Source of the DNA: Halogeometricum sp. S3BR5-2
Lineage (GTDB): Archaea > Halobacteriota > Halobacteria > Halobacteriales > Haloferacaceae
Length of the DNA: 64,000 bases
Reading direction: 5' to 3'
NCBI RefSeq assembly: GCF_031624635.1
Contig: NZ_JAMQOQ010000003.1
Coordinates: forward strand, 1 to 64,000
The notes beneath the pieces are model-generated. The model had not been told where the DNA came from, made no database searches, and worked only from the letters and a program-made list of their open reading frames with translations. Positions 6,911 to 63,373 of this stretch are shown piece after piece; the first letter of the stretch is position 1, and every line of letters starts with the position of its first letter. A program made the position numbers and the translations under genes.

Positions 6911-6936
6911 ACACCACTCTATACGTGAAGTTACAG

Positions 6937-8190
<1,254 letters not shown>

Positions 8191-9041: not shown

Positions 9042-11417
9042 TTACTCGGTTCGGCGTAGCCCCGACGCGATTTTCTCGGCGGTCACGGGGAGGTCGACCA
9101 CGCGCACGCCGCAGGCGTTGCGAACGGCGTTCGCGACGGCGGCCGGCGGGGCGATGTTACACGTCTCCCCGACGCTCTTCGCGCCGAACGGGCCGGACGG
9201 TTCGTACGGTTCGACGAGGATGCCCGTCGTTCGCGCGGGGATGTCCGTGGCTCGGGGAGACTCGTACTCCCGAAGCGTCGTCACTTCGGGGCGGCCGTCC
9301 TCGTCCCACGTGACCGCTTCGGATACCGCCTGTCCGTATCCCATGACGGCGGCACCGATGACTTGTCCGCGGCAGTTCTCGGGGTGGATGGCGTAGCCGA
9401 CGTCGGCGGCGCTGACCAGTTGCATCACCTCGAAATCGCCCGTCTCCAGGTCGACTTCGACCTCCGCGACCTGTGCGGCGAACGGTTTCGGCGAGAGTTC
9501 CGGCGCGGCGTCGCCGTGGCCGATGATTCGTTTCTTCCGCCCATCGATACCGGTGAAGATGCGTTCCGCGAGGTCGGCGACTCGAATCTGGTCGCCGGAC
9601 GGACCGGTGATGGCCCCTTCCGAGAGCGCGAGCGACTCGCGGCTATCCTCGAGGTAGTCGGTCGCGGCGTCGCACAGTTTCTCGGCGGCTTCTTCCGCGG
9701 CGCGTCGGACCGCCGTTCCGGAGACGTACGTCGTCGAGGAGCCGTAGGCGCCGTTGTCCCAGGGCGTCGCGTCCGTGTCGTCGCTCTGGACGTGGATGTC
9801 GCTCGTCGGGATACCGAGGACGCCCGAAGCGATCTGCGCCATCGTCGTGTCGGCACCTTGTCCGATGTCGCCGACGCCGACCCGAAGCGTCGCGGTGCCG
9901 TCGTCCTCGATGGTTATCTCCGCACCGGCGAACTCGTCGCCTGCGACACCGGATTTGTGCATCGCGAGTCCGATACCGAATCCGCGAGCGTACCGCCCGT
10001 CCTCCGTCTCGACCGTTCGCGGTTCGTCGCGCCAGTCGGCGTCCGCGGTCGCCTCGTCGATACACTCTTCGAGTCCGATGGCGGCGAAGGGACGCTTGCT
10101 CTCGGAGAATCCGGGGTCGAACGCCTTCAGACCGTCGTGGACGATGTTCCGCCGTCTGAGTTCGAGCGGCGGTATTCCGACCGCTTCGGCCACTTCGTCG
10201 ATGTGACTCTCGACGGCGAACGCGCCCTGCGGCGACCCGTACCCGCGCATCGCGGCGGCGGGCGTGATATTGGTGTAGACGGCGCGCCCGGTGAATCGCC
10301 GGTTTTCGAGGTCGTACACGGACAGCGGTTCGTGCCCGCCGTTCGACAGTACGGTCAATGCGTGGTTTCCGTACGCGCCCGTGTTCGACGTAATGTCCAC
10401 GTCCATCGCCGTGAGTTCCCCGTCCTCGGTGACGGCCGTTTTGACGGTGATATCCATCGCGTGCCGGCAGTGAGTCGCGTACAGGTCTTCTTCCCTCGAC
10501 GTGACGAGCCGAACCTTCGCGTCGGCCTTCCGCGCGAGTGCCGCACAGTAGTACTGCGTCGGGAGCGTGTCCTGCTTCCCGCCGAATCCCCCGCCGACGC
10601 GTGGCTTTACCACTTTCACCTTCGCTCGCGGCAGGCCGAACGCGCGTGCGACGTTGTCGCGGACGAGATGAGGCGTCTGCGTGCTGGTGCGGAGGACGAG
10701 GCGGTCGCGGTCGTCTATCCACGCGATAGTGGCGTTCGGCTCCAACTGGGCGTGCTGAACGGTCTGCGTCGAGTACTCGCCCTCGACGACGATATCGGCC
10801 TCGGCGAAGGCGGCGTCCACGTTTCCCTCGCTCGATTCGACCTCGGCGACCACGTTCCGGTCGCGGTCACAGCCGGGTTGTGGGTTCTCGTACTCGTCTT
10901 CGTCGTGAAGCGTCGGTGCCTCCGGTGCCATCGCCTCCTCGGGCGCGAGGACGTGGTCGTGCACCTCGTACTCGACCTCGATGGCGTCGAGTGCCGCGGC
11001 CGCGATGTCGTCGGTGTCGGCGGCCACTGCCGCCACGGGGTCGCCGACGAATCGAACCGTCGGGTCGTTTCCTCCCTCGTCGTACGGTGCCGGCTGCGGG
11101 TGCGGGACGCCCTGCCTGCAGTAGCGGTGGGGAAAGTCCGCTGTTCGGGTGACGACGGCGCGGACGCCCTCCATCGACGCTGCCTCGGACGTATCGATGT
11201 CGCGGACGGTCGCGTGAGCGTGTGGGCTGTACAGGACCTTCCCCGCGAGTGCGTCGTCGGCCACCACATCGTCCGTGTAGGCCGCCTTTCCGGTGACGAG
11301 TCCGCGACCGTCGACCTTCTCGACGCTGTCGCCGACGTCGCCCGGGGCCGACGCTCGTCTCTCGTCGCGGTCGCTCACGCTACTCTCCGCGGGCGGCGTC
11401 CGGGTCTGCTCACTCAT
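9042..11417 (-). CDS. Xanthine-dehydrogenase-family molybdopterin-binding subunit (791 aa)
   Basis: A full-length large subunit of the xanthine oxidase family: an N-terminal hammerhead domain (VDGRGLVTGKAAYTDDV), the Mo-pterin segments KVVKPRVGGGFGGKQ and AAAMRGYGSPQGAF, and the C-terminal GAKSVGE whose Glu (about residue 751) is the usual catalytic base. Such enzymes hydroxylate aromatic or heterocyclic carbon with water, or reduce aromatic CoA esters. The start at MSEQTRTP (11417) overlaps the stop of the 2Fe-2S gene by 8 bases, so the two subunits are translationally coupled. No FAD subunit gene is present. Substrate is unknown. Confidence 0.9.
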   Translation of the reverse strand: MSEQTRTPPAESSVSDRDERRASAPGDVGDSVEKVDGRGLVTGKAAYTDDVVADDALAGKVLYSPHAHATVRDIDTSEAASMEGVRAVVTRTADFPHRYCRQGVPHPQPAPYDEGGNDPTVRFVGDPVAAVAADTDDIAAAALDAIEVEYEVHDHVLAPEEAMAPEAPTLHDEDEYENPQPGCDRDRNVVAEVESSEGNVDAAFAEADIVVEGEYSTQTVQHAQLEPNATIAWIDDRDRLVLRTSTQTPHLVRDNVARAFGLPRAKVKVVKPRVGGGFGGKQDTLPTQYYCAALARKADAKVRLVTSREEDLYATHCRHAMDITVKTAVTEDGELTAMDVDITSNTGAYGNHALTVLSNGGHEPLSVYDLENRRFTGRAVYTNITPAAAMRGYGSPQGAFAVESHIDEVAEAVGIPPLELRRRNIVHDGLKAFDPGFSESKRPFAAIGLEECIDEATADADWRDEPRTVETEDGRYARGFGIGLAMHKSGVAGDEFAGAEITIEDDGTATLRVGVGDIGQGADTTMAQIASGVLGIPTSDIHVQSDDTDATPWDNGAYGSSTTYVSGTAVRRAAEEAAEKLCDAATDYLEDSRESLALSEGAITGPSGDQIRVADLAERIFTGIDGRKKRIIGHGDAAPELSPKPFAAQVAEVEVDLETGDFEVMQLVSAADVGYAIHPENCRGQVIGAAVMGYGQAVSEAVTWDEDGRPEVTTLREYESPRATDIPARTTGILVEPYEPSGPFGAKSVGETCNIAPPAAVANAVRNACGVRVVDLPVTAEKIASGLRRTE

Positions 11418-12000
11418 CGCTCTCACCACCGAATCCGCAGTCACAGCCCGGACACCCGCCGTCGGTAACGGCTGACGACTGCTCGGACGTCTCCGTCTCG
11501 CCTCGTATCCGCGCTGCGGCGTCTTCGACGGCGTCGAACTGTTGGACGTATCCGGTGCACCGACAGATGTTCCCGTTCAACGCGCTCGCGATCTCCTCCC
11601 GCGTCGGGTCGTCGTTCTCGCGGAGGAGTTTGGCGGCGGAGACCATCATTCCCGGAATACAGAAACCGCACTGCGCCGCGCCGTGGTCGAGGAACGCGGC
11701 CTGTACCGGATGGAGTTCGCCGGTCTCGTCGTCGACGAGTCCAGCCGCGGTCGTCAGTTCTGCCCCGTCGAAGCGGTCGGCCGGAAACAGACAACTCCGG
11801 ACGACCCCGCCGGTGTCCTCGTTCAGGACGTTGCACGCGCCACAGACTCCCTCGCTACAGCCGTTGAGGACCGAATCGATTCTGTTGTCTCGGAGCGCTT
11901 GCATCAGGCTGCTTCCCTCTCGGTACGTGATCGTCCGGTGCTCGCCGTCTACGGTCAACTCTACGGACGACTGGCCGGTCACCTCGTCTCCCATTGACAT
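11410..12000 (-). CDS. 2Fe-2S subunit of the molybdenum hydroxylase (196 aa)
   Basis: The small iron-sulfur subunit that passes electrons from the Mo site. Plant-type ferredoxin cysteines are C48, C53, C56 and C70 (CSEGVCGAC...C); the second, helical cluster uses C111, C114, C146 and C148 (CGFC...CRC). Both clusters are complete. An extra tail after residue 180 carries three more cysteines (CPGCDC), which the usual 150-170-residue members lack. It precedes the Mo subunit gene with an 8-base overlap and follows the transporter genes by 122 bases on the same strand, so it may be part of their transcript. Confidence 0.9.
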   Translation of the reverse strand: MSMGDEVTGQSSVELTVDGEHRTITYREGSSLMQALRDNRIDSVLNGCSEGVCGACNVLNEDTGGVVRSCLFPADRFDGAELTTAAGLVDDETGELHPVQAAFLDHGAAQCGFCIPGMMVSAAKLLRENDDPTREEIASALNGNICRCTGYVQQFDAVEDAAARIRGETETSEQSSAVTDGGCPGCDCGFGGESDE

Positions 12001-12122: not shown

Positions 12123-13610
12123 TCAGGCGTCACCGCGCTCCGTGCGGAGACGCAGAACGATCGGCGAGAAGAACATCACGAGAGAGAGCACGAGCAGGAA
12201 TCCGCTGATGGGGCGCGTGACGAACACGGAGTAGTCGCCCCCGGAGATGAGCAGTGCGCGCTGGAAGCCGCGTTCGGCGATGGGTGCGAGGATGAACCCC
12301 ATGATGAACGCGACGAGCGAGTACCCCCGTCTGTCGAGGACGAACGCGAACAAGCCGATCAACACCGCGACCATGACGTCCGTGATGTTCGTGCGGACGG
12401 CGTATGCGCCCATCAAGGCGAAGCTGATGATGGACGCGAGCAGGATGTCGTCCGGGAGGTCGTTGACGCGGGCGAAGTACTTCCCGCCGAGCAACCCCCC
12501 GAGGAGAAAGACGACGTTTCCGAGGAGGATGCTGATGTAGATGACGTAGGGGAGCGCGGTCCCCTCGAACGCTTGGGGGCCGGGTGAGATTCCGTACGTC
12601 ACCATCACGCCGATGAACACCGCGGCCGACGCGCCGCCGGGGATGGCGAGCGCCATCGCGGGGACGAGCGCACCCATCGTCGAGCCGTTGTTGGCGGACT
12701 CGGCGGCCACGACGCCCTCGGGATTGCCGGTGCCGAACGACTCGGGTTTGTCGGACAGTCGGACTGCGACGAGGTAGGAGAGGAAGTTCGCCGCCGAGAT
12801 ACCGACACCGGGTATCGATCCGACGAACGTTCCGATGAGGCCGCCGCGGAGCATCCCGGTCCAGTCTCTCATCGCCTCGCGGACGCCCTCCCAGACGTTG
12901 CTGCCGGCGGCCGACACTCGGACCACCGAGTCAGTGGACAGCGTCATCTCGATGGCCTGCGAGACGGCGAACAGGCCGACGAGTAACACCACGAGGTCGA
13001 TACCGCCCTGCAGATAGAACGTGTCGAACACGTACCGCGGACTCGCGCGGATGGGGTCGGTGCCGACGGAGGCGAACACGACGCCGATGGAGACTGCGAC
13101 GAGCGACTTCAGGAGCGACCCTCGGGTGACCGCGGAGATGATCGACAGCCCGAACACCGCGAGCATGAAGAAGTCCGCCGGACCGAACTCCAGCGAGAAG
13201 TCCGCGAGGACCGGCGCGAACAGGGCGAGGAAGAAGAGGCCGATGACCGCGCCGACGAACGACGAGAGCGTGGCCGTTCCGAGTGCGACCGCGGCTTTCC
13301 CCTGTTTCGTGAGCGGATAGCCGTCCAACAGCGTCGCCGCCGACCCGGGCGTCCCGGGGATGTTGACGAGAATCGCCGACACCGACCCGCCGAACGTCGT
13401 CGACCCGTAGAGAACCGCCATCAACGAGAGGCCCACCTCGGGTTCGAGGACGAACGTGAACGGGAAGAACAACACCAGCGCGAGCGTCGGACCGATCCCC
13501 GGCGTCGCCCCGAGGAGGATGCCGATGAGAGAGACGGCGAGGATGAGTCCGAGCAGTTCCGGTGTTAGTACCGTCGCCAGCGCCTCCTGGATGTACCCGA
13601 GAGCAGTCAT
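12123..13610 (-). CDS. tctA: Tripartite tricarboxylate transporter, large permease TctA
   Basis: A 495-residue membrane protein with about ten to twelve hydrophobic segments. The motif LGATPGIGPTLALVLFFP near the N-terminus and FVGSIPGVGISAANFLSY in the second half are the duplicated glycine-rich loops of TctA. With TctB and TctC it forms a secondary transporter that uses an external binding protein and an ion gradient. The start codon overlaps the tctB stop by one base (TGATG). In bacteria these systems import citrate, terephthalate and other di- or aromatic acids; the local genes point to an organic acid. Confidence 0.9.
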   Translation of the reverse strand: MTALGYIQEALATVLTPELLGLILAVSLIGILLGATPGIGPTLALVLFFPFTFVLEPEVGLSLMAVLYGSTTFGGSVSAILVNIPGTPGSAATLLDGYPLTKQGKAAVALGTATLSSFVGAVIGLFFLALFAPVLADFSLEFGPADFFMLAVFGLSIISAVTRGSLLKSLVAVSIGVVFASVGTDPIRASPRYVFDTFYLQGGIDLVVLLVGLFAVSQAIEMTLSTDSVVRVSAAGSNVWEGVREAMRDWTGMLRGGLIGTFVGSIPGVGISAANFLSYLVAVRLSDKPESFGTGNPEGVVAAESANNGSTMGALVPAMALAIPGGASAAVFIGVMVTYGISPGPQAFEGTALPYVIYISILLGNVVFLLGGLLGGKYFARVNDLPDDILLASIISFALMGAYAVRTNITDVMVAVLIGLFAFVLDRRGYSLVAFIMGFILAPIAERGFQRALLISGGDYSVFVTRPISGFLLVLSLVMFFSPIVLRLRTERGDA

Positions 13611-14242
13611 CAGAGCACCCCTCCGAGAATCGGAAGCTCGTACACGCCCTCGGTGACCGGCACGTGCAGAACTTGACCGAACAGGACGTAGATGGCGGCC
13701 ATGACGAGGAGGCTGGCCACGATGCCCGACCGCCAGTCGCGACGACCCAAGAGACCGACGGTACCGAGGATGAGCAGGGGAATAGCGTAGAAGAAGCCGA
13801 CGAGGTACGCGACACCGACGAAAACGACGAGCAATCCGATGATACCCACGCTTCGGGTAGTCCGGGAGGTGAGAATCGGCTCGACCGTCGGCCCCTCCGC
13901 GCGGGATGCGTCGTCGGTAACGCTCCCGCTCTCGGTTCGCCCCTCCTCATCGACCAGTTCCTCGCGATCCGTCTCCATCTCGTTGGCCATCCCCTGCGTC
14001 AGCACCTTGATGCGCTCGCCGTACGCCGGCGGAAGCACCTCCGAGGAGAACTGCACCACCAGAAAACAGAAACCCGCGACGAGGAACACCAGCGGGAATC
14101 GACGGGCGCTGTCCGGGTACTGCACCGTGACGGAGATAAGGTAGCCGAACACCGCCAAGAGCACCAACTGGTCCCACGTCGCAGCGAGGACGCCGCGCGC
14201 GTCCCTGCTCTCTCGCCTCTCTTCGTCGTATGCGTCGGTCAT
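13610..14242 (-). CDS. tctB: Tripartite tricarboxylate transporter, small subunit TctB
   Basis: A 210-residue protein with four hydrophobic segments: two near residues 22-60 and two near 130-200, split by a long acidic linker (about residues 80-120, rich in Glu, Asp and Ser). This matches the TctB arrangement, though the linker is longer than in most bacterial members. I start at MTDAYDEE (14242); the longer frame adds 55 Arg-rich residues that do not fit. It lies between tctC (29-base gap) and tctA (one-base overlap). Confidence 0.75.
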   Translation of the reverse strand: MTDAYDEERRESRDARGVLAATWDQLVLLAVFGYLISVTVQYPDSARRFPLVFLVAGFCFLVVQFSSEVLPPAYGERIKVLTQGMANEMETDREELVDEEGRTESGSVTDDASRAEGPTVEPILTSRTTRSVGIIGLLVVFVGVAYLVGFFYAIPLLILGTVGLLGRRDWRSGIVASLLVMAAIYVLFGQVLHVPVTEGVYELPILGGVL

Positions 14243-14271: not shown

Positions 14272-15351
14272 TTACTGGGTGAGTTCTCGATAGCGGTCCG
14301 CCGCGGCTTGGAGGTCGTCCATCTTCTGTCGCGTCTCCTCGGCGCCGACGCCGACCACGGAGAGCCCGTTGTTCTCGACGAACCCCTGGTACTCTTCGTT
14401 CTGGCACGCCGCCGTGATGGCGTCGGAGACCACGGACACGTTCGCCTCGTCGACGCCGGGCGGGCCGTGGATGGCCATCTCACCGGCGACGACCGGGATA
14501 TCCCACTCGGAGATGTCGTTCACCGTCGGCGCGTCCGGGTAGCGTGGCGACGGACTCGGTCGGTCGACGAGCAACACGTCGATGCGGCCGTCCTGAACGA
14601 GACCGGTGAGATCCGAAGAGGAGTACGCGATGTCCACGTCACCGGACGCGGCCGCGGCCCCCGCCTCTGAACCGCTGTCGTATGGGACGGCGCTCACCTG
14701 TTCGCGGTAGTTGATACCGAGCGAGTCGAGAACGCTGACCGCGCTGAAATGCGTGGTCGACCCCGTCCCCGTGGAGGCCATCGTGAACTCCGAATCGCCG
14801 AGCTGACTCATCATGTCACTGAGGTCTTCGTACCTCCCCGCGGGCGCGACGAGCAACGAATAACCCGCGTCGACGGTCCCCATCGGCGTCAGCTCCGAGG
14901 GGTCGTACTGGGTGTTGAACAGCGCCGCCCCCAGAATCGTCGTCGGGAGGTACTGCGCGATGAGCGAGTAGCCGTCCGGGTCCTGTCCGTAGAGGTAGTT
15001 CATCCCCGTACGACCGGACGCGCCGCTCCGGTTCTCGACGATGGTGTTCCCGCCGAGTTCCTCCTCGAAGTAGGGCTTGAACCCGCGGTAGCGCGTGTCG
15101 TTGCTTCCCCCGGCCCCGAAACCGACGACCATCGTGATCGTCTCCGACGGGTACGACCCCGACTCCGAGGACGTGTCGGTACTCGATTCTTCGGAGGTCG
15201 ACGACTCGGTCGTCCCCTCGCCGCCGCTGTCGCCTCCGTTGCCGTTACCCTCGCCGCCCCCCATACACCCGGCGAGACTCGCGATGCCGGCGAGCCCGGT
15301 TGCTTTGATAACCGATCGTCTATTCATGATACTGCTGTGATTGTCATTCAT
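14272..15351 (-). CDS. tctC: Tripartite tricarboxylate transporter, substrate-binding lipoprotein TctC
   Basis: A 359-residue extracytoplasmic binding protein. The N-terminus has a twin-arginine start (MNRRSVIKATGLAG) and lipobox (LAGC), then a Gly/Ser/Glu-rich linker; it is thus probably a Tat-exported lipoprotein anchored outside the cell. YPSETITMVVGFGAGGSND marks the Bug/TctC fold. The start used is MNDNHSS (15351), 26-35 bases from a TATA-like box; MNRR at 15327 is a possible internal start. First gene of the tctCBA cluster. Bug-type proteins bind carboxylates; the ligand is not known. Confidence 0.88.
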   Translation of the reverse strand: MNDNHSSIMNRRSVIKATGLAGIASLAGCMGGGEGNGNGGDSGGEGTTESSTSEESSTDTSSESGSYPSETITMVVGFGAGGSNDTRYRGFKPYFEEELGGNTIVENRSGASGRTGMNYLYGQDPDGYSLIAQYLPTTILGAALFNTQYDPSELTPMGTVDAGYSLLVAPAGRYEDLSDMMSQLGDSEFTMASTGTGSTTHFSAVSVLDSLGINYREQVSAVPYDSGSEAGAAAASGDVDIAYSSSDLTGLVQDGRIDVLLVDRPSPSPRYPDAPTVNDISEWDIPVVAGEMAIHGPPGVDEANVSVVSDAITAACQNEEYQGFVENNGLSVVGVGAEETRQKMDDLQAAADRYRELTQ

Positions 15352-15603: not shown

Positions 15604-16569
15604 ATGACAAGCGAACACAGCTACAACAACACGCTCAGCGTCGTCGGCGACACGCCGATGATCGAACTCCCGTCAATGCGTCCCGAGGGGGGCGCGTCCA
15701 TCTACGTGAAGTGGGAGGGGGCGAACCCGACGGGGAGTCTCAAGGACCGAATGGCGCTCGCGATGATCGAACGGGCGAAGGAGCGCGAGGAACTCGGGCC
15801 GGGAGATTCGGTTGTCGAGTTCACCGGCGGGAGCACGGGGTCGAGTCTCGCGTTCGTCTGTGCCGTCCTCGACCACCCGTTCTCCGTCGTGACCGCCGAC
15901 TGCGTCGCCGACGAGAAGATCGCGTCGATGCGAGCGCTCGGCGCGCACACCGTCGTCGTCGAGACGCCCGACGGGGAGATGTACGACGGTCTCTCGGACG
16001 ACCTCAGAGCGGAAGCCGAGCGTATCGAAGAGGAGACCGGCGCGTACTTCACCGACCAGTTCAACAACCCCGACCAGCTCGACGGCTACGGGGCACTCGG
16101 ACGAGAGATACTCGACGACAGACCCGACCTCGACGACTTCGTGATGGTCGTCGGAACCGGTGGCTGTGCGATGGGCACCTCGCGGTCGTTTCGGGAACGG
16201 GGTGCCGACGTTGCCGTCACGCTGGTCGAACCCGAGGAGTCCCCCGTCATCTCCGCCGGGACGACCGGGTCTCACAGCGTTCAGGGGACGGCCATCCTCG
16301 GCTCGCCGCCGCTCGTAGAGCGAGAACTGTACGACCGAGTCTGTACGCTCTCCAACGCCGAAGGAGTCGAGTGCGTCCGGCAACTCGCCCGCGACGAGGG
16401 GCTGTTAGTAGGGACCAGCACCGGCATGAACGTGGCCGCGGCGAGACGCGTCGCGGCGGACCGCGACCCCGAGCAATCGGTCGTCACGGTCGCGTGCGAC
16501 ACCGGTCTCAAGTACCTCTCGGACGGGCTGTACGAGGGAATAGCCGAGTCGAAGTTCTGTTTTTCCTGA
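15604..16569 (+). CDS. Cysteine-synthase-family PLP enzyme (321 aa)
   Basis: A fold-type II PLP enzyme. Lys47 in NPTGSLKDRMA is the cofactor lysine, FTGGSTGSSLA (about 73-83) is the carboxylate-binding loop and GTGGCAMGTS (about 180-190) the phosphate-binding glycine loop. Family members make cysteine or cystathionine, or act as beta-eliminating lyases or amino-acid dehydratases. The asparagine loop is TGGSTGS rather than TSGNTG of cysteine synthases, so a different substrate is likely. It heads a plus-strand series (creatininase, dehydrogenase, CoA-synthetase-like), suggesting catabolic work rather than cysteine synthesis. Exact reaction unknown. Confidence 0.8.
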   Translation: MTSEHSYNNTLSVVGDTPMIELPSMRPEGGASIYVKWEGANPTGSLKDRMALAMIERAKEREELGPGDSVVEFTGGSTGSSLAFVCAVLDHPFSVVTADCVADEKIASMRALGAHTVVVETPDGEMYDGLSDDLRAEAERIEEETGAYFTDQFNNPDQLDGYGALGREILDDRPDLDDFVMVVGTGGCAMGTSRSFRERGADVAVTLVEPEESPVISAGTTGSHSVQGTAILGSPPLVERELYDRVCTLSNAEGVECVRQLARDEGLLVGTSTGMNVAAARRVAADRDPEQSVVTVACDTGLKYLSDGLYEGIAESKFCFS

Positions 16570-17634: not shown

Positions 17635-18675
17635 ATGCACGCAGTAGCATTCCACGAACACGGAGAGATCGACAACTTAGAACTGATGGACGTCCCCCGT
17701 CCGACACCCGAATCCGACGAGGTGATCGTCGCCGTCGAGGCGGCGGCGCTCAATCACCAAGACCTGTTCGCGGTGCGAGAACTCGACCACTACGTCCCTC
17801 AGTATCCTTTCTGGGGCGGGGGCGACATCGCGGGCGTCGTTGACGAACTCGGCGACGAGGTCACCGGATGGGAGGAGGGCGACCGAGTCGCCGTCAATCC
17901 CGCCATCTCCTGCGGCGAGTGCGAGTTCTGTGTCCGCGGCGAGCACTCCCAGTGTGCGAACTACGCGGTGTTCGGCGAGCACCGACTCGGCGGGTTCGCC
18001 GAGTACGTGGCCGTCCCCGCGGAGAACCTCGTCCGCGTCCCGGACGGCTACGAGATGACGAAGGCCGCCGCTGCACCGATGGCCGCCGGGACGGCGTGGC
18101 GCATGTTGGTCACCCGTGCGGACGTCGACCCGTGGGACGACGTGCTCATCGTGGGCGCGTCCGGCGGTGTCGGTTCGTACGCCGTCCAGATAGCGAAGAA
18201 CGTGTTGAACGTGGGGACGCTGTACGGGACGACGTCGAGTGCGGCGAAAGCCGACTTCCTCCGTGAGTTGGGCGTCGACGAGGTCATCGACTACACCGAG
18301 GAGGATTTCAGCCGGGTCGTCTGGGAGGCCACCGACAAACGCGGCGTCGATGTCGTCGTGAACAACGTCGGGGGCGAGACGTGGGTGCCGTCGCTTCGGA
18401 CGCTCCGAAACGGGGGGACCCTCGTCACGTCCGGAGCGACCGCCGGTCCGAACCCCGAAACCGAGATCCGACTGCTGTTCGTCCGGCAGTTGAACGTCCT
18501 CGGGAGCACTACGCACACTCGCGACTCGTTCGCGACGATGATGGAGTACGTTTTCGACGGCACCATCGACCCCGTGGTGCAGGAGACGTATCCGCTCGAA
18601 GAGTTCGAGGAAGCGTTCCGCAAGATGGCCGACCGGGAACTGTACGGGAAGGTCGTCTTGACGGTGGGGGAATGA
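17635..18675 (+). CDS. Zinc-type MDR alcohol dehydrogenase / quinone oxidoreductase (346 aa)
   Basis: Medium-chain dehydrogenase with the structural zinc cysteines C93, C96, C99 and C107 (CGECEFC...C) and a Rossmann motif GASGGVGSYAVQ near residue 178. The residue where many alcohol dehydrogenases have a catalytic-zinc cysteine is in LNHQDLF, as in zinc-free quinone-oxidoreductase-like members, so it may act on an enoyl or quinone-like substrate. The final codon overlaps the ATG of the next gene (ATGA), giving a coupled pair with the CoA-synthetase-like protein. Cofactor NAD(P) is inferred from the fold. Confidence 0.85.
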   Translation: MHAVAFHEHGEIDNLELMDVPRPTPESDEVIVAVEAAALNHQDLFAVRELDHYVPQYPFWGGGDIAGVVDELGDEVTGWEEGDRVAVNPAISCGECEFCVRGEHSQCANYAVFGEHRLGGFAEYVAVPAENLVRVPDGYEMTKAAAAPMAAGTAWRMLVTRADVDPWDDVLIVGASGGVGSYAVQIAKNVLNVGTLYGTTSSAAKADFLRELGVDEVIDYTEEDFSRVVWEATDKRGVDVVVNNVGGETWVPSLRTLRNGGTLVTSGATAGPNPETEIRLLFVRQLNVLGSTTHTRDSFATMMEYVFDGTIDPVVQETYPLEEFEEAFRKMADRELYGKVVLTVGE

Positions 18676-20195
18676 CGAGCGACGAGACGGCGGCCTTCGC
18701 GAATCGACCGTCCGTGACGCCGCCGCCGGGCGAGACCGAAGCGTGGGAAACGGCGACCAGAGAGGTTGGGTCGCTGCTGGACCCGGAGGCTGTCGCGGTC
18801 GTCGGTGCGTCGAACACCGAGGGGAAACCGGGGTACGCGCTGGTCGAGAACATTCGTATCAACGGCTACGACGGAGCCGTCTACCCGATCAATCCGAAGG
18901 AGACCGAGATTCAGGGGCTGAAGGCGTACCCGTCCATCGAAGACGTGCCGACCGACGTGGACACGGCGCTGTTCGTCGTGCCGGGCCACATCATCCCCGA
19001 TATCGTTCCCTCCTGCGCCGAGAAGGGCGTCACCAGCATCGTCGTCGTCTCGGCCGGGTTCGGTGAGGCGGTGGACGCGGACCGCCAGGAGATGCAGGCC
19101 GAGATAGCCGAGGCGTGCAGACAGCACGGTATCCGCGCCATCGGGCCGAACACGACCGGCATGGTGTCGATGAAACGTGACTTCGTCGCGAGTTTCGTCC
19201 CGTTCCCGCGGTGGCACGACGGGAACGTCGCGCTCGCCGCCCAAACCGGTATTTTCGCCGGCGTCTACATGGAGGAGTTGATGGCCCGAGAGGTGCAGAA
19301 ACTCGGTTACAACTACAGTCTCGCCCTCGGGAACAAGATGGACTTAGACGAGACGGAGTTCGTCAAGTACGCCGGACAGGACGACGACGTGGACGTGGTC
19401 CAACTCCACCTCGAATGCATCCGGAAACCCGCCGAGTTCTTCCCCGCGGCCGGTCACGTCGCTTCCTCGAAACCCGTCGTCCTGCTCAAGACCGGACGCA
19501 CTCCCGAGGGCCGCGCGGCGTCGCGGTGGCACACCGCGTCGACGCCCGGGCCGGACGACGAGGTGACGAACGCCTGTCGCGCGAACGGTGTCGTGCGCGC
19601 CGATACCGTCCCGGAATTCATGAACTACGCGAAGGGGTTCTCCTACCAACCCGCACCGCGCGGCCGAAACGTCGCGGTGTTGTCGCTGTCGGGGGCGAAC
19701 GCCGTGATGGCCGCCGACTACGTGAGCGACTCGATGCTGGACCTCGCGTCGCTCTCCGAGGAGACGCTCGAAACGGTGAAAGCGCTCGTGCCCGACTGGC
19801 AACCGGTCCGCAACCCAATCGACCAGTGGCTCGCGCTTCCGAGCGGTGCGCGCGAAGCGCAGGAAGTGCCGCTGAACGCCGTCCTCGCCGACGACAACGT
19901 CGACGCCGTGGTCACCATCCACCTCGCGACGGACGAACCCGACTTCGACGGCATCGGCGACGTGTACCGCGACGCGATGGCGGACCATCCCGAAAAGCCG
20001 GTTCTCTCGTACGTCATGGGGGCGGAAGTCAAAGACGGCTGGATCGAATCGATGGAGGGGACCGGCGTTCCGGTGTACGAATCGGCCGTCGAGGCCATCA
20101 AAACGCTCGAGCAGATGTACTGGTGGCGCCGGTACACCGACGGCGAGGCGGCGTACGATTCCTCGCTCCCGACCCGCAACGACCGAGTTCTCTGA
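18672..20195 (+). CDS. ADP-forming acyl-CoA synthetase, alpha-subunit-like CoA-binding protein (507 aa)
   Basis: The N-terminal CoA-binding Rossmann domain (AVAVVGASNTEGKPGYALVE) is followed by two succinyl-CoA-synthetase-type domains (GPNTTGMVSM, LKTGRTPEGRAASRWHTAS). The His in SRWHTAS sits where the phosphohistidine loop is expected. The ATP-grasp beta domain of single-chain enzymes is absent and no beta-subunit gene is nearby, so it needs a partner encoded elsewhere or has another role. Translation is coupled to the dehydrogenase by the ATGA overlap. It would interconvert an acid and its CoA ester with ADP/ATP. Confidence 0.75.
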   Translation: MTSDETAAFANRPSVTPPPGETEAWETATREVGSLLDPEAVAVVGASNTEGKPGYALVENIRINGYDGAVYPINPKETEIQGLKAYPSIEDVPTDVDTALFVVPGHIIPDIVPSCAEKGVTSIVVVSAGFGEAVDADRQEMQAEIAEACRQHGIRAIGPNTTGMVSMKRDFVASFVPFPRWHDGNVALAAQTGIFAGVYMEELMAREVQKLGYNYSLALGNKMDLDETEFVKYAGQDDDVDVVQLHLECIRKPAEFFPAAGHVASSKPVVLLKTGRTPEGRAASRWHTASTPGPDDEVTNACRANGVVRADTVPEFMNYAKGFSYQPAPRGRNVAVLSLSGANAVMAADYVSDSMLDLASLSEETLETVKALVPDWQPVRNPIDQWLALPSGAREAQEVPLNAVLADDNVDAVVTIHLATDEPDFDGIGDVYRDAMADHPEKPVLSYVMGAEVKDGWIESMEGTGVPVYESAVEAIKTLEQMYWWRRYTDGEAAYDSSLPTRNDRVL

Positions 20196-20203
20196 GACCC
20201 CGC

Positions 20204-21214
20204 TCAGAGGTCGAACAACTTCGCTGCGGTTCCGCCGAGGACGGCCTCGCGCTCCGAATCGGTCAGGCCGAGTGCTTCGAGGTCCTCGAACGTCCCCGCG
20301 GCGTCCTCGGCCTCGAACGGATAGTCGCTGGCGAAGAGTAAGCGGTCCGCGCCCACCGTGTCGACCGCGCATCGAAGTGCCGGGACGTGGTGGGCGATGG
20401 CGTCGTAGTACAGCGTTTCGAGGTAGTGAGTCGGGCGGTGCTCGGGCAGGTCGTCCGCGTCGGCGTCGCCCGCGACCCGTTCTTTCGCGATGTCGTAGGC
20501 GGTTTCGAGTCGCCCCGCGAGGTACGGAAGCGCGCCGCCGAGGTGTGCCACGACGAACGGAATCTCGGGGAAGCGGTCGAAGAAGCCGTCGAAGACCAGT
20601 CTCGAAATTTGGACTGTCGTCTCAGTAGGGAAGATGACCATCGGCTTCAGCATCCACTCGTCTTCGCCCATCGACTCGGTGAGAGCGTTGTACCGCGGAT
20701 GGACGAACACCGAGAGGCCGCGGTGTCGGATGCGTTCGAAGACGGGGACGAACGACGGGTCGGACAGCGGCGTCCCGCGAACGGTCGTCTTGAGGGCGAT
20801 ACCCGCGAGGTCCAGTTCGTCGGCAACGCGGTCGACCTCGGCGACGGCCGCTTCGGGGTCGCGCATCGGCAGGCAGGCCAATCCGTTTATCCGACCGGGG
20901 TGGGCGTCGCGGGCGGCGGCGTAGCCGTCGTTGAGGGCGCGCGCGAGTTCGACCGACTCTTGGACGGTGAACGGACCCTCGTTCGGCGACGGCTTCGAGA
21001 CCGAAAGGAGTCCGACGTCTACGTCGTGTTCGTCCATCCACTCGATGCGGGTGTCGAGGTCGGTGAATCCCGGATAGAGCGGAAACGAGTCGTGTTCGTG
21101 GCTAATGTAGGGCATCCCGTCGCGTTCGGTGACGCGGACCGACCGCGCTTTCGCGCCGAGGGCTTCGAGGTACGCTTCCGGCAGGAAATGCGTTTGCACG
21201 TCGACGGTTTGCAT
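20204..21214 (-). CDS. ACMSD-type amidohydrolase / decarboxylase (336 aa)
   Basis: TIM-barrel amidohydrolase of the 2-amino-3-carboxymuconate-semialdehyde decarboxylase group, which includes non-oxidative decarboxylases of aromatic acids. Visible metal-site motifs are QTHFLP (residues 7-12), FVHPRYN, VVAHLGGALPYLAGR and FASDYPFE. The first ligand position, His or Glu in characterised members (HxH or ExH), is Gln7 here. The gene is convergent with the CoA-synthetase gene and diverges from ubiD with an 87-base shared promoter region. The start at MQTVDVQ (21214) fits a TATA-like box near 21237-21245. Probably a decarboxylase or ring hydrolase; substrate unknown. Confidence 0.8.
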   Translation of the reverse strand: MQTVDVQTHFLPEAYLEALGAKARSVRVTERDGMPYISHEHDSFPLYPGFTDLDTRIEWMDEHDVDVGLLSVSKPSPNEGPFTVQESVELARALNDGYAAARDAHPGRINGLACLPMRDPEAAVAEVDRVADELDLAGIALKTTVRGTPLSDPSFVPVFERIRHRGLSVFVHPRYNALTESMGEDEWMLKPMVIFPTETTVQISRLVFDGFFDRFPEIPFVVAHLGGALPYLAGRLETAYDIAKERVAGDADADDLPEHRPTHYLETLYYDAIAHHVPALRCAVDTVGADRLLFASDYPFEAEDAAGTFEDLEALGLTDSEREAVLGGTAAKLFDL

Positions 21215-21244
21215 ACGTCGAACGGGCGGCCGCAGGCGATAAAT

Positions 21245-21279
21245 GTGGTGGATGGTCTCATGGACCACAACTGATAAGA
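21245..21279. promoter_or_regulatory. Shared promoter region with inverted repeat, amidohydrolase / ubiD
   Basis: Between the divergent genes, TGGTC-TCATG-GACCA (21253-21267) is an inverted repeat, with outer GTGGT / ACCAC steps at 21245-21249 and 21264-21268. A TATA-like ATAAAT faces the amidohydrolase side and TGATAAGA the ubiD side (23-32 bases before 21302). A regulator bound here could control both genes. Confidence 0.4.
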
Positions 21280-21301
21280 GCGACCCTGTGAATACCGAGA
21301 C

Positions 21302-22768
21302 ATGGTCAAGGACCTACGGGACTTTCTCGCCGAAGTGGATGCAATCGGCGAACTGGAGACGTTCAAGGGTGCACACTGGAATCACGAAATCGGCGCCGTA
21401 ACCGAACTCGTCGCGGAGAAGGGAAGCGGCCGAGGGGGTCCGGCGTGTCTGTTCGACGACATCGAGGGATATCCGTCCGGATTCCGCGTCCTCTCGAACA
21501 CGTTCGGGTCGATAGAGCGCTCACGGATCACGCTCGGAAAGCCGGAGGGGACGACGGCGATGGAGATGGTCGATCAGTGGCGAAAGGACATGAAGGCGGA
21601 ACCGTGGAGCGACGAGGGTGGAAGCGGCGACGGGACGACGCTCGTCGAGGACCCGACGCCCGAGGTGGCACCGATACTGGAGAACGTGGACGCCGGAGAC
21701 GACGTGGATGTGACGAAGTTCCCCGTCCCGGTGTGGCACGCGCAGGACGAGGACAACCGCTACATTGGAACGGGATGCACCATCCTCACGAAAGACCCCG
21801 ACACCGGGTGGGTCAACCTCGGGGTCTACCGCTCGTCGATCATTGACGAACAGACCGTGACGATGGGTATCTGGCCCGGCAAAGACGGTCTCGTGACGAT
21901 GCGGAAGTACCACGAACGCGGCGAGGACTGCCCTATCGCGATGGTGGTCGGGTTGGACCCGTGGACGTGGCTCGCGTCGACCATCACGCTACACAGACAG
22001 GAGTCGGAGTACGAGGTGGCGGGATGGCTCCAAGGCGAACCGATTCCGGTCATCGAAGCCCCCGACACCGGTCTCCCCATCCCGGCGAACGCGGAGATAG
22101 CCCTCGAAGGCTACCTGCCACCGCTCTCGGAGGAACGCTGTACCGACGGCCCGTTCGGGGAGTGGCCGGGGTACTCCACCCCGCCGCACCCGGACCTCCC
22201 GGTGATGCACGTCACGAACGTGATGCACCGCGACGACCCCATCCTACTGGGTCAGCCACCGCTTCGGCCGCCTGCGCTGTACACCCTCGGCGTTCCCGTC
22301 CGGACAGCGGGCGGCGTCTGGAATCAACTCGAAGACGGCGGCGTCCCGAGCGTCACCGGCGTCTGGAGCCACGTCATCGAACGTCCGATGTTCCTCGTGG
22401 TGTCGATAGAGCAAGAGTATGCCGGTCACGCGAAGCAGGCGGGCCTCGGTGCCGTCAGCACGCCCAACGGGTCCTATGGCGGGCGGTACGTCGTCGTGGT
22501 CGACGACGACGTGGACGTGACCAACCTCGACGAGGTGCTGTGGGCGATGTGCACGCGGTGCCGCGCGGAAGACGTAGAGATAGTAGAAGGAGTATACACC
22601 AGTCCGCTCGACCCGTTGGTGCAGGACCGCGAACGCCCCACCAGCGGTCGCGTCATCGTCGACGCAACTCGTCCGTACGACGAGGAGTTCCCCGAAGCCA
22701 TCGCGTTCCCTGACGACTACCGTGAGGAAGTTCGGGAGAAGTGGGGGCTCGACGCGGTCGGAATCTGA
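21302..22768 (+). CDS. ubiD: UbiD-family prenylated-FMN decarboxylase (488 aa)
   Basis: Full-length UbiD family enzyme. Typical blocks are NLGVYRSSIIDEQTVTMG, PANAEIALEGYLPP and DGPFGEWPGY, which surround the prenylated-FMN and acid-base residues. These enzymes carry out reversible decarboxylation of aromatic, heteroaromatic or unsaturated acids and need prenylated FMN made by UbiX. The ubiX gene follows 37 bases downstream, so the pair is self-sufficient. In a catabolic block with a hydroxylase and acyl-CoA ligase it more likely degrades an aromatic or furan-type acid than makes a quinone. Substrate is inferred only. Confidence 0.88.
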   Translation: MVKDLRDFLAEVDAIGELETFKGAHWNHEIGAVTELVAEKGSGRGGPACLFDDIEGYPSGFRVLSNTFGSIERSRITLGKPEGTTAMEMVDQWRKDMKAEPWSDEGGSGDGTTLVEDPTPEVAPILENVDAGDDVDVTKFPVPVWHAQDEDNRYIGTGCTILTKDPDTGWVNLGVYRSSIIDEQTVTMGIWPGKDGLVTMRKYHERGEDCPIAMVVGLDPWTWLASTITLHRQESEYEVAGWLQGEPIPVIEAPDTGLPIPANAEIALEGYLPPLSEERCTDGPFGEWPGYSTPPHPDLPVMHVTNVMHRDDPILLGQPPLRPPALYTLGVPVRTAGGVWNQLEDGGVPSVTGVWSHVIERPMFLVVSIEQEYAGHAKQAGLGAVSTPNGSYGGRYVVVVDDDVDVTNLDEVLWAMCTRCRAEDVEIVEGVYTSPLDPLVQDRERPTSGRVIVDATRPYDEEFPEAIAFPDDYREEVREKWGLDAVGI

Positions 22769-22805
22769 CCGGAAGAGCGAAGAGCTAACGCTCTATTACC
22801 ACGGT

Positions 22806-23417
22806 ATGCAGTCCTCTAACAGGGTCGTCGTCGGCGTCACCGGCGCGACTGGGCAACTGTACGCCATCAAGGCGCTCGAATTTCTCGCGAACGCCGATGT
22901 CGAGACTCATCTCGTGCTCTCAGACGCTGCCGGACTGAATATTCGACAGGAGTCGGAGTACACCGTCGAAGACGTCCGCTCGCTCGCGGACTACGTCCAC
23001 GACAACCGTAACATCGGCGCACCGACCGCCAGCGGCTCGTTCCGAACGCGCGGGATGCTCGTCACGCCGTGTTCGATGAAGACGCTCTCGAACATCGCAC
23101 ACGGCAACTCGACGAACCTCATCGCACGGTCGGCGGACGTCGCGCTCAAAGAGCGCCGTCCGCTCGTGTTGATGCCCCGAGAAAAGCCCTTCAACCGTAT
23201 TCACCTCAAGAACATGCTGGACGCCACTGACGCCGGTGCCATCGTGATGCCGCCGCTACCCTCCTTCTACAACCGCCCGGCCTCCATCGAGGAGATGGTC
23301 GCCAGAACGATAGCCCGGACGCTCACCTACTTCGACGTCGATGTGGCATTCGACGAGTGGGACGGCATCTCTTCGGTGGCCGATTCAGAATCGAACGGCG
23401 GAGGGGACGGCGATTGA
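22806..23417 (+). CDS. ubiX: UbiX flavin prenyltransferase (203 aa)
   Basis: Makes prenylated FMN from FMN and a dimethylallyl donor for the UbiD enzyme encoded just before it. The N-terminal VGVTGATGQLYAIKALEFL is the UbiX flavin loop; TPCSMKTLSNIAHG, ERRPLVLMPREKP and PLPSFYNRP are further family blocks, complete here. A Glu/Asp-rich tail is haloarchaeal. I begin at MQSSNRVVVG (22806); the longer frame lacks a convincing N-terminus. The 37-base gap from ubiD implies co-transcription. Confidence 0.9.
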   Translation: MQSSNRVVVGVTGATGQLYAIKALEFLANADVETHLVLSDAAGLNIRQESEYTVEDVRSLADYVHDNRNIGAPTASGSFRTRGMLVTPCSMKTLSNIAHGNSTNLIARSADVALKERRPLVLMPREKPFNRIHLKNMLDATDAGAIVMPPLPSFYNRPASIEEMVARTIARTLTYFDVDVAFDEWDGISSVADSESNGGGDGD

Positions 23418-56504: not shown

Positions 56505-57806
56505 TTACGGCCAGAGCCCGCGTGCCTCGTGCGCCTCGGCGATTCGAGACAGTGCGACGATGTAGGCCGCGTCCCGCCAGGTGACGTCGCGACGCTCGAA
56601 CTCCGTCTGGACGGCGTTCCAGGCGGTCTGCATCTCCGCTTCGAGTTCGTCGTTCACTCGGTCGAGCGACCACGCTCGTCGGTTGATGTCCTGTAGCCAC
56701 TCGAAGTAGCTCACCGTGACGCCGCCGGCGTTCGCGAGAATATCGGGGATCACGGCGATATCTCGCTCCGCCAGGGTCGAATCGGCCGCGGACGTCGTCG
56801 GACCGTTCGCGCCTTCGACGACGAAATCCGCGGCGATCGCCGCTGCGTTCTCGGCGGTGATCACGTTCCCGAGTGCCGCGGGAATGAGGACGTCGACGTC
56901 GAGTGTGAGTAGTTCCTCGTTCGAGATGACCTCGTCCGCGTACGTCGTGACGGCCTCGGGTTCTTCGTCGTGTGAGGGGACCGCGGCCGTATCGATACCC
57001 GAGGGGTCGTACATGGCGCCGTTCACGTCGCTGATGGCGACGACGGTCGCTCCCCACTCGTCGAGGAGTCGAGCGGCGTTCGCCCCGACGCTCCCGTAGC
57101 CTTGGATTGCGACCGTCGCGTCCCCGAGCGGGCGGTCGTAGTGTTCGCACACGAGCTGCGTGATAATCGCGACGCTCCGACCGGGTGCTTCTTCACGTCC
57201 CTCGCTGCCGCCGATCACCGGGGGCTTGCCGGTGACGACGCCCGGTATCGTCTCGCCCTCCTGCATCGAGTAGGCGTCCATCAACCACGCCATCGTCTGG
57301 GGATCCGTCCCCATGTCGGGCGCCGGAATATCTTGATTGGGACCGATGACGTCGCGAATCTCTTGGGCGAATCGCCGAGTGAGACGCTCTTTTTCGGCCG
57401 TGCTCAGCTCTTTCGGGTCGATGGCGATACCGCCCTTGGCACCCCCGAACGGGATGTTCATGACGGCACATTTCCACGTCATCCACATGCCGAGTCCGAC
57501 GCACTCGTCTCTGGTTACGTCGGGATGGTACCGAAGCCCGCCTTTGAACGGACCTCGAACGCTATCGTGCTGGGCCCGATAGCCGCTGAAGACTTCGACG
57601 GTTCCGTCGTCTCGTTTGATGGGGACCGTCACCTCGTGGACCTTCTTCGGATGCTTGAGCCGTTCGACGATACTCGGGTCGATATCGAGGTAGTCGGCGG
57701 CGTGGGACAACTGTCGGCGGGCCGTCTCGAGCGTCGACTCCGATTCGGTCGAGACTGCCGCCGCATCGTCTGTCTCACCGCGGGTCGTCTCTGGTTGGGA
57801 GGCCAT
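56505..57806 (-). CDS. Glutamate dehydrogenase (Glu/Leu/Phe/Val dehydrogenase family, 433 aa)
   Basis: Complete hexameric-type [22 protein letters not shown], the Lys-containing [13 protein letters not shown] (active site Lys) and the Rossmann motif [16 protein letters not shown]. It interconverts glutamate and 2-oxoglutarate with ammonia. The N-terminal 35 residues are an acidic haloarchaeal extension. Start is MASQPETT (57806); the longer frame adds 34 Arg-rich residues. It begins two bases before the stop-codon region of the small zinc peptide upstream, which overlaps closely, implying one transcript. Confidence 0.92.
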
Positions 57807-62071: not shown

Positions 62072-63373
62072 GTGGAATACCGTCGAACTGCCGTCATCAA
62101 ACTCGACACGCCCTCGGACGCCAAACCAGCACTCCGAGAGACAGTCGAGCAATTCAAACACTGCGCTAACCGCGCGAGCGAATGGTGTTGGCACGGGCGT
62201 CGCCAGATTCCTCCGGAATCTGGCTGCCAGCCAGAAACGCGGAGCGTTTCTGGTGACGACGACGGATACCACGTTACCTCGAAAGCCACAGCCGAACGCG
62301 CCCTCTACGACCCACTCCGCGACGAAACCGACCTAACCGCGAATCTCGTCCAGAAAGGGATTCGCCGAGCGGTCGAAGCCGTCAAGAGCGGAGTCGAACG
62401 GCTCAAGCGCGGAGAGAACACGTCCAAGCCCCACTTCTCGGCGGACAGCGTGGTGTACGACAAGCGGAGTGCGACGTTCCACCGCGACCACGTATCCCTC
62501 TCTACCGTAGACGGACGCGTTGAGTGCGAGTACATCCTTCCCGACGACACAGAGAAACCGCCGACCAAGTACGTCTCCGATGACGACTTCGAGTTTCGCA
62601 TGGGGCACCTCCAGCACCGAGACGGTGACTGGTATCTCCACGCCTCCATGCGGAAAGTCGAAGCCGACGAGACGCCCGACCCGGACACCAAGCACAGAAC
62701 AGTCCTTGGTGTCGATTTGGGCGTCAACAACATCGCCGTGGCTTCGACCGGACGCTTCTGGTCGGCGGACGAGTTTAACCACTGGCGTCGGGAGTACGAG
62801 AAGCGTCGTGGGTCGCTCCAACAGTGCGGTTCTCGACACGCCCACGAGAACGTCCAGTCCATCGGGCGTAAAGAGGACGGTCGGTTTGAACAAGACCTCC
62901 ACACGATAGCGAACGAACTTCTTGAGGAAGCCATCGAGTACGGCTGTTCGCATATCGTGTTCGAGGACTTGACGCATATCCGCGAGAACATCCCCGACGC
63001 GACGTGGCAACATGTGTGGGCGTTCCGACGCCTCTACGAGTACGTCGAATACAAGGCCAAGGAATACGGCCTTAGCGTCGAACAAGTTCCGCCGGAGAAC
63101 ACGTCTAAGCGGTGTTCGACGTGCGGATGTACCCACGACGACAACCGTAATGGGGAGTCGTTTGAGTGCCAGAAGTGTGGGTACGAGAACCACGCGGACT
63201 ACAACGCGAGCAAGAACATCGGCTTTCGGTATCTCCGTCGTCGGCAAAACGCAGACGATGGAGGCGCACCCGTAGGTGTTGCGCTAAATCGCGGGACGCT
63301 GAACGTGAGTGGCGAGTATTCGCCCGCCAGCGATGGCTTGAACGGGAGTCCACGCGAAAGCCCACGATTTTAG
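62072..63373 (+). CDS. tnpB: TnpB, second copy, with in-frame hairpin insertion (433 aa)
   Basis: Complete TnpB: LGVDLGVNN (first Asp), IVFEDLTHIRENI (Glu), zinc ribbon CSTCG...CQKCG and the last Asp in ADYNASKNIG. Compared with the copy at 6937 it carries about 18 extra residues near positions 43-60 (RQIPPESGCQPETRSVSG), made by two DNA hairpins inserted in frame. A GTG at 62072 begins the gene. The catalytic motifs are intact, so activity may be preserved. About 40 per cent similar to the first copy by eye. Confidence 0.88.
   Translation: MEYRRTAVIKLDTPSDAKPALRETVEQFKHCANRASEWCWHGRRQIPPESGCQPETRSVSGDDDGYHVTSKATAERALYDPLRDETDLTANLVQKGIRRAVEAVKSGVERLKRGENTSKPHFSADSVVYDKRSATFHRDHVSLSTVDGRVECEYILPDDTEKPPTKYVSDDDFEFRMGHLQHRDGDWYLHASMRKVEADETPDPDTKHRTVLGVDLGVNNIAVASTGRFWSADEFNHWRREYEKRRGSLQQCGSRHAHENVQSIGRKEDGRFEQDLHTIANELLEEAIEYGCSHIVFEDLTHIRENIPDATWQHVWAFRRLYEYVEYKAKEYGLSVEQVPPENTSKRCSTCGCTHDDNRNGESFECQKCGYENHADYNASKNIGFRYLRRRQNADDGGAPVGVALNRGTLNVSGEYSPASDGLNGSPRESPRF
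62203..62253 (+). repeat. Pair of hairpins inside tnpB
   Basis: CCAGATTC-CTCCG-GAATCTGG (62203-62223) and CCAGAAACGC-GGA-GCGTTTCTGG (62231-62253). Both are perfect stems, both begin CCAGA, and together they keep the reading frame. Confidence 0.7.

Follow-up and report, generated by a model that had tools for sequence, protein, structure and literature searches.

How does a molybdenum (Mo) hydroxylase that is encoded without a flavin adenine dinucleotide (FAD) subunit pass on its electrons, and does the cysteine-rich tail of its iron-sulfur (FeS) subunit have a part in this? The question is raised by a pair of genes in a 64,000-nucleotide stretch of DNA (the window; positions 1 to 64,000 of contig NZ_JAMQOQ010000003.1) from the haloarchaeon Halogeometricum sp. 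S3BR5-2 (genome G000), which encode a small subunit with two [2Fe-2S] clusters and a Mo subunit. It appears fairly probable that this is a two-subunit enzyme of the xanthine dehydrogenase type that has lost its FAD gene and hands its electrons to a mobile carrier, likely a ferredoxin, the tail being an arm that is independent of FAD.

The gene pair and its relatives

The two proteins contain the domains that define the Mo hydroxylase (xanthine oxidase) family, namely, Fer2 and Fer2_2 with eight ligand cysteines (positions 48, 53, 56, 70, 111, 114, 146 and 148) in the small subunit, and MoCoBD_1 and MoCoBD_2 in the large one. Both genes are open and intact, with the eight cluster cysteines and the active-site motifs kept, the loops GGGFGGK, SREED, AMRGYGSPQG and SVGE being identified in a hidden Markov model alignment of 152 large subunits and that of the window. 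Beyond the ligands, the small subunit has three extra cysteines (183, 186 and 188), all within the last 20 residues. The 8-base overlap of the two genes, pointed out in a sequence-only reading of the window, is correct in its coordinates and strands, and translational coupling through this overlap is likely.

Judged by its sequence, the enzyme is a two-subunit Mo hydroxylase of the xanthine dehydrogenase type and, on the same evidence, its closest relatives are the three-subunit enzymes (gene order FeS-Mo-FAD) of purine-catabolism clusters. In NCBIfam, XdhA comes first, below the equivalog cut-off (607 of 780 bits), with XdhC at 138 of 217 bits, and the best solved relative of the large subunit is 4-hydroxybenzoyl-coenzyme A (CoA) reductase (1rm6, 359 bits). 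XdhABC (NF043082, NF043084) and 1rm6, which are among the best-scoring relatives, likewise contain two 2Fe-2S clusters and share with the window enzyme the Glu of the VGE loop and the Arg of the AMRGYG loop; the window enzyme differs from them in the lack of an accompanying or nearby FAD-subunit gene, in its sub-cut-off scores and in its C-terminal cysteine tail.

The sequence-only reading had likened the pair to cytochrome-linked two-subunit members such as isoquinoline oxidoreductase. Enzymes of the IorAB or 8gy3 type consist of two subunits, for 2Fe-2S and Mo, and have no FAD gene, and in the lack of a FAD subunit the window enzyme agrees with them. The likeness does not extend to the large subunit, which falls outside the cytochrome-linked subfamily as represented by 8gy3_C, standing in for IorB, which was not in the comparison: the large chain of 8gy3, presumably a FAD-less, cytochrome-linked membrane aldehyde dehydrogenase, matches with 54 bits, far below 1rm6 and last of the 42 matched sequences, and no cytochrome domain is found in the scanned window proteins.

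Two further identities were rejected. Haloarchaeal form I carbon monoxide (CO) dehydrogenases (CoxSML) resemble the window enzyme in having three cysteines behind a DGG linker (25/25) but differ from it in the presence of FAD, in the spacing of the cysteines (mostly C-x4-C-C compared with C-x2-C-x-C) and in the AYRCSFR loop, present in 25 of the 177 haloarchaeal Mo-subunit open reading frames (ORFs), in place of which the window enzyme has AMRGYG. A selenium-dependent hydroxylase of the kind proposed for haloarchaea was dismissed as well, given that G000 has no match to YqeB (TIGR03309), and the window enzyme belongs to a clade other than that of these candidates.

Absence of the FAD subunit

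The claim that no FAD-subunit gene lies near the pair is borne out. A genome-wide profile search gives no FAD_binding_5 match on the contig of the window, and a remnant of such a gene, sought by tblastn with FAD subunits taken from relatives and from G000 itself, was rejected both in the window (the best match, at 57360-57614, having an E of 0.12) and at the locus of the sister enzyme, all matches being at chance level. In the whole of G000 (a draft of 22 contigs, 99.87% complete), there are three places that match Fer2_2 and two that match FAD_binding_5, and both FAD genes belong to the other two operons, FeS-Mo-FAD on contig C6 and FeS-FAD-Mo on contig C2; such was the outcome of the check for an orphan CoxM-type gene that the sequence-only reading had proposed. 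That the enzyme has two subunits and no dedicated FAD subunit is supported at the genome level.

The sister enzyme (locus L174, genome G332), which is 56-61% identical, also has no FAD gene, and its genome contains three small-subunit matches and no FAD_binding_5 match. In the tree of small subunits, the window sequence pairs with L174 (support 86) inside a clade of eight (support 100), the other six members of which (L175-L180) have a FAD gene directly after the Mo gene; a gene of the xanthine permease cluster is found at five of these six loci, and so is a gene for XdhC. Small-subunit genes without any FAD match in the genome were detected in 5 of the 29 genomes (G332, G004, G427, G402 and G341), which indicates that FAD-less Mo hydroxylases of the xanthine dehydrogenase type are established in haloarchaea.

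The likely exit of the electrons

Fer2 matches beyond the small subunits, many of which may be larger proteins, are present in all six genomes tested, G000 included, and, of the five genomes without FAD matches, four have no Flavodoxin_1. With flavodoxin mostly absent and Fer2 found in all six genomes, the balance favours a plant-type ferredoxin, and the electron carrier of the window enzyme is probably such a protein. By analogy, the closest mechanistic precedent is the aldehyde oxidoreductase of Desulfovibrio gigas, which, like the window enzyme, is free of FAD and, according to an excerpt of PMC10223205, relies on an external carrier, with flavodoxin serving as a pseudo-subunit. This enzyme is a single fused chain, as opposed to the two genes of the window.

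Under the reading favoured here, the FAD gene would have been lost, most simply in the common ancestor of the window and G332 enzymes, and the pair would now reside in another catabolic island, with the genes of a TctABC transporter lying upstream of the two. The substrate would be hydroxylated at the Mo centre, and two electrons would pass through both [2Fe-2S] clusters and, on leaving the plant-type one, be picked up by a mobile carrier docked at the site normally held by the FAD subunit; a ferredoxin of the plant type is the most likely candidate. The tail would be a flexible tri-cysteine arm common to several lineages of haloarchaeal Mo hydroxylases and unnecessary for FAD-free life, preferably with a role in maturation or in metal or chalcogen binding or, alternatively, in docking.

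Several observations weigh against this reading. The search for an electron carrier linked to the gene pair was negative: a Pfam scan of 37 window proteins, a set that leaves some window ORFs unscanned and does not extend to unlinked cytochromes, which were not searched for, shows no ferredoxin, flavodoxin or cytochrome domain besides the small subunit. Flavodoxin_1 has three partial matches in G000. The support of 86 for the pairing with L174 is modest, and a long branch (0.61) leads to the window sequence, so that a single shared loss of the FAD gene is uncertain, and the estimated contamination of G332 is 10%. Since G000 is a draft, there is some chance of a FAD gene hidden in an assembly gap or of the use of a FAD subunit from either of the other operons. 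The FAD gene is 1.4-26 kb distant in a neighbouring subclade (G045, G350, G435, G165, G085 and G090). Finally, the tail is absent from all seven nearest homologues, that is, from the sister enzyme and the six FAD-bearing relatives.

Form and spread of the tail

The CPGCDC tail with C183, C186 and C188 is present as first described. It is predicted by AlphaFold to have no secondary structure, with low confidence (predicted local distance difference test scores of 62, 55 and 52 for successive blocks), and the chance of three cysteines in 20 residues is ∼7e-4 (binomial, with cysteine making up 0.85% of the crude gene calls). In the background of 1462 other crudely called genes, 31 encode at least three cysteines in the last 30 residues, and 21 of these 31 C-termini are of the YHS type by pattern, one being confirmed by Pfam (the background and neighbour counts come from crude gene calls at 121 loci, some wrong-strand frames included).

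The notion that typical family members lack such a tail agrees with the solved structures of stand-alone small subunits, where no alignment extends past residue 169, but not with haloarchaea. Among 170 haloarchaeal small subunits (188 sequences minus 10 bacterial ones and eight haloarchaeal ones without a readable motif, taken from longer stretches of 3-19 kb, mostly 12-17 kb, among the matches listed), 60, with and without FAD, have at least three cysteines after the CRCTGY motif. The first tail cysteine is preceded by [AST]DGG in 60/60, and the tri-cysteine group, to which the window protein belongs, is defined here by these two features; the same linker occurs in 24 of 81 tail-poor sequences and in none of the seven clade mates of the window protein. 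The exact C-x-G-C-x-C arrangement is found in 12 sequences, that of the window among them, at three places of the tree.

By class, at least three tail cysteines are present in CCGG (25/25), EKII (13/19), KKIV (10/17), QKPV (6/15), the window clade (1/8) and five others. The class names (EKII, KKIV, QKPV, CCGG and other3C) rest on the tail sequence, and the CCGG count is complete partly by construction; the fair count for the CO dehydrogenases is by the AYRCSFR motif of the large subunit. This motif is present in 25 of 152 pairs, all of which have exactly three tail cysteines, the first of these located 35-72 residues past CRCTGY, and a FAD gene within 4 kb; at least three tail cysteines are also found in 34 of the 127 pairs without the motif.

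Within its own clade of eight, the window protein is the sole tailed member. The sequence-only reading had named absence of the tail from close homologues as grounds for abandoning its view of the tail, and such absence, in seven of seven, is what was found; as a feature conserved among orthologues, the tail is rejected. Ten bacterial loci, with 33-40% identity, include five short tails without cysteines and three sequences without the locating motif, and the remaining two run into the next domain or gene, which makes their cysteine counts meaningless. A full-text literature search, with coverage that excludes most subscription journals, retrieved no paper describing the tail. On this comparison, the tail looks more widespread than first thought and appears to be a recurring module, not something that takes the place of FAD.

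Alternative explanations

For the tail, a tentative possibility is that it is a flexible thiol arm for maturation, which would take up or pass on the sulfur, selenium or copper of the Mo centre or contact XdhC-type chaperones. The predicted disorder and the variable reach of the tail are consistent with such a role, as is its presence in each of the 25 form I CO dehydrogenases (assigned to the Mo-Cu type through AYRCSFR), at 21 of which a protein with a YHS-type C-terminus is encoded, with none at the other loci of the 121 (pattern search). The tail is also frequent in the KKIV class, and genes of the SelD, YqeB, TusA or DsrE/DsrH families are located near the four tandem KKIV/QKPV loci examined (L059, L187, L192 and L193), the four genomes, out of 24, in which YqeB (TIGR03309) scores above the cut-off being exactly those of these loci. 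Cysteine tails are frequent in the tandem pairs, no FAD gene lies within 4 kb of them, and their SelD/YqeB-type setting matches that reported, in excerpts of PMC2276186 and PMC2432076, for the selenium-dependent candidates of Haloarcula marismortui (pNG700). Given this setting, the pairs at the four loci are likely to be selenium-dependent Mo hydroxylases, present in several haloarchaeal families. Metal or chalcogen handling is a possible role of the tail that would fit these settings. Against the maturation arm, the tail is dispensable, missing as it is in the sister, in the FAD-bearing relatives and in 3 of the 17 KKIV sequences; there is no YqeB in G000 and no direct link between tail and chaperone.

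A bolder and rather improbable version is that the tail swings to deliver the active-site metal or chalcogen, handed on from XdhC-type chaperones, and is gained, lost or swapped independently of FAD. If this were true, the cargo would be copper and sulfur in CO dehydrogenase, selenium in the SelD-linked pairs and sulfur in the window enzyme. Quite apart from this version, the tri-cysteine tail, constant in the 25 CO dehydrogenases and mostly near a YHS-type XdhC protein, offers a handle on copper or chalcogen delivery to the Mo site.

Separate observations at these loci concern fusions and a ligand replacement. One CO dehydrogenase locus encodes an XdhC/CoxI-YHS fusion (L081:4055-5221; Pfam, the only example scanned), and at 20 further loci a protein with a YHS-type C-terminus was recognized by pattern; the YHS-type XdhC protein and the three-cysteine CoxS tail are a candidate copper-handling pair. 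A YqeB-XdhC fusion is also among the genes near the tandem FAD-less pairs of L059, L187, L192 and L193. In the second, QKPV-type small subunit (L192:6498-7025, L193:6779-7306 and others), the third plant-type ligand cysteine is replaced by serine (CGAS for CGAC) in 14 of 15 sequences, counted by pattern match, the pattern falling elsewhere in the 15th.

We consider it unlikely that the window enzyme is an ordinary three-subunit one, with a FAD subunit borrowed from the C2 or C6 operon or encoded in a gap of the assembly. G000 does have two FAD genes, and the unlinked FAD subunits of the neighbouring subclade form one clade (support 99), as their small subunits do, so that the wider group does include cases of an unlinked partner. 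Yet, both FAD genes of G000 are parts of complete operons and fall outside the clade of the partner FAD subunits of L175-L180, and not a single FAD match is present in G332, the genome of the sister enzyme. As an observation in its own right, three genomes of the subclade (G045, G350 and G435) contain a split Mo-hydroxylase gene set, in which the FeS-Mo pair is 9-26 kb away from a FAD gene that lies close to one for XdhC.

The sequence-only reading had proposed that the tail binds another metal or docks an electron partner; the form of this proposal in which the docked partner or an extra redox metal centre replaces FAD now seems improbable. What speaks for it is the C-x-G-C-x-C arrangement common to the window and EKII-clade tails and a raw association with the lack of FAD: at least three tail cysteines are present in 30 of 53 sequences without FAD within 4 kb compared with 30 of 117 with FAD (Fisher p 1.3e-4, raw), and at least two in 38/53 compared with 35/117 (p 4e-7, raw). 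The 53 include L066 and one of the two L250 sequences, from loci at contig ends where a missing FAD gene is uninformative; the contig of L191 is short as well, yet no FAD match exists in G341, the genome to which it belongs. On the tree, there are 12 tail changes and five FAD changes and about one independent contrast, nearly always in the same direction, which is too few for a test, and as a marker of FAD loss the tail was rejected. Furthermore, the nine small subunits of the five genomes without FAD matches have at least three tail cysteines in three cases, two in two, one in one and none in three, the last being both subunits of G004 and the sister L174, and the 25 FAD-bearing CO dehydrogenases are all tailed. 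The existence of these tail-free subunits and of tailed FAD-bearing enzymes implies that the tail is not simply a FAD substitute; FAD loss and cysteine tails look like largely separate traits, both recurrent in haloarchaea.

There is, finally, little to recommend the idea that the tail has no role in this enzyme, as a neutral or decaying addition to haloarchaeal proteins, and that the enzyme itself decays after loss of the FAD gene by insertion sequence (IS)-mediated deletion, for which one can cite the OrfB/TnpB-like gene at the site where FAD would be expected, the long window branch and the fewer tail cysteines in some EKII sequences, but which is at odds with the intact genes with all cluster cysteines and active-site motifs, with the FAD-less sister that has no IS there and a convergent gene abutting its Mo gene, and with the retention of C-x-G-C-x-C in 11 other sequences.

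Genomic neighbourhood and substrate

Table 1. The gene pair and neighbouring features in the window
Feature	Coordinates	Strand	Remarks
Small subunit, two [2Fe-2S] clusters, 196 amino acids	11410..12000	-	Pfam Fer2, Fer2_2; eight ligand cysteines
Molybdenum cofactor (MoCo)-binding subunit, 791 amino acids	9042..11417	-	Pfam MoCoBD_1, MoCoBD_2, Ald_Xan_dh_C; active-site loops
Overlap of the two genes, 8 bases	11410..11417	-	
C-terminal tail of the small subunit, residues 177-196	11413..11472	-	TDGG linker and C183-P-G-C186-D-C188
TctA, tripartite tricarboxylate transporter	12123..13610	-	Immediately upstream, same strand, gap of 122 bases; Pfam
TctB	13610..14242	-	Pfam
TctC, substrate-binding receptor	14272..15351	-	Pfam
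PALP, pyridoxal phosphate-dependent enzyme	15604..16569	+	PALP also near the L174 sister, from a different similarity cluster
Zinc-dependent alcohol dehydrogenase-like	17635..18675	+	Same similarity cluster as a gene beside the L174 sister
CoA-binding/succinyl-CoA ligase-like	18675..20195	+	Homologue abuts the sister Mo gene (L174:4155-5642)
IS605 OrfB/TnpB-like	6925..8190	+	On the side where FAD-bearing relatives have the FAD gene

A gap of 122 bases separates the pair from tctA, which, like tctC and tctB further ahead, precedes it on the same strand, so that a transporter-hydroxylase operon is likely. No purine-pathway gene was recognized among the window proteins scanned. The window and L174 share the CoA-ligase-like and alcohol dehydrogenase-like genes, each with a PALP gene, compared with the purine setting of the FAD-bearing relatives, and therefore the substrate has probably changed and differs from that of these relatives. 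At 20204-23417, an Amidohydrolase_2 gene is found beside a UbiD-like/UbiX pair that resembles the VdcC/VdcB hydroxyarylic acid decarboxylase, below cut-offs, which suggests aromatic-acid catabolism in this island. A second IS605 OrfB/TnpB-like gene is present at 62072-63373, so that the two lie near opposite ends of the window.

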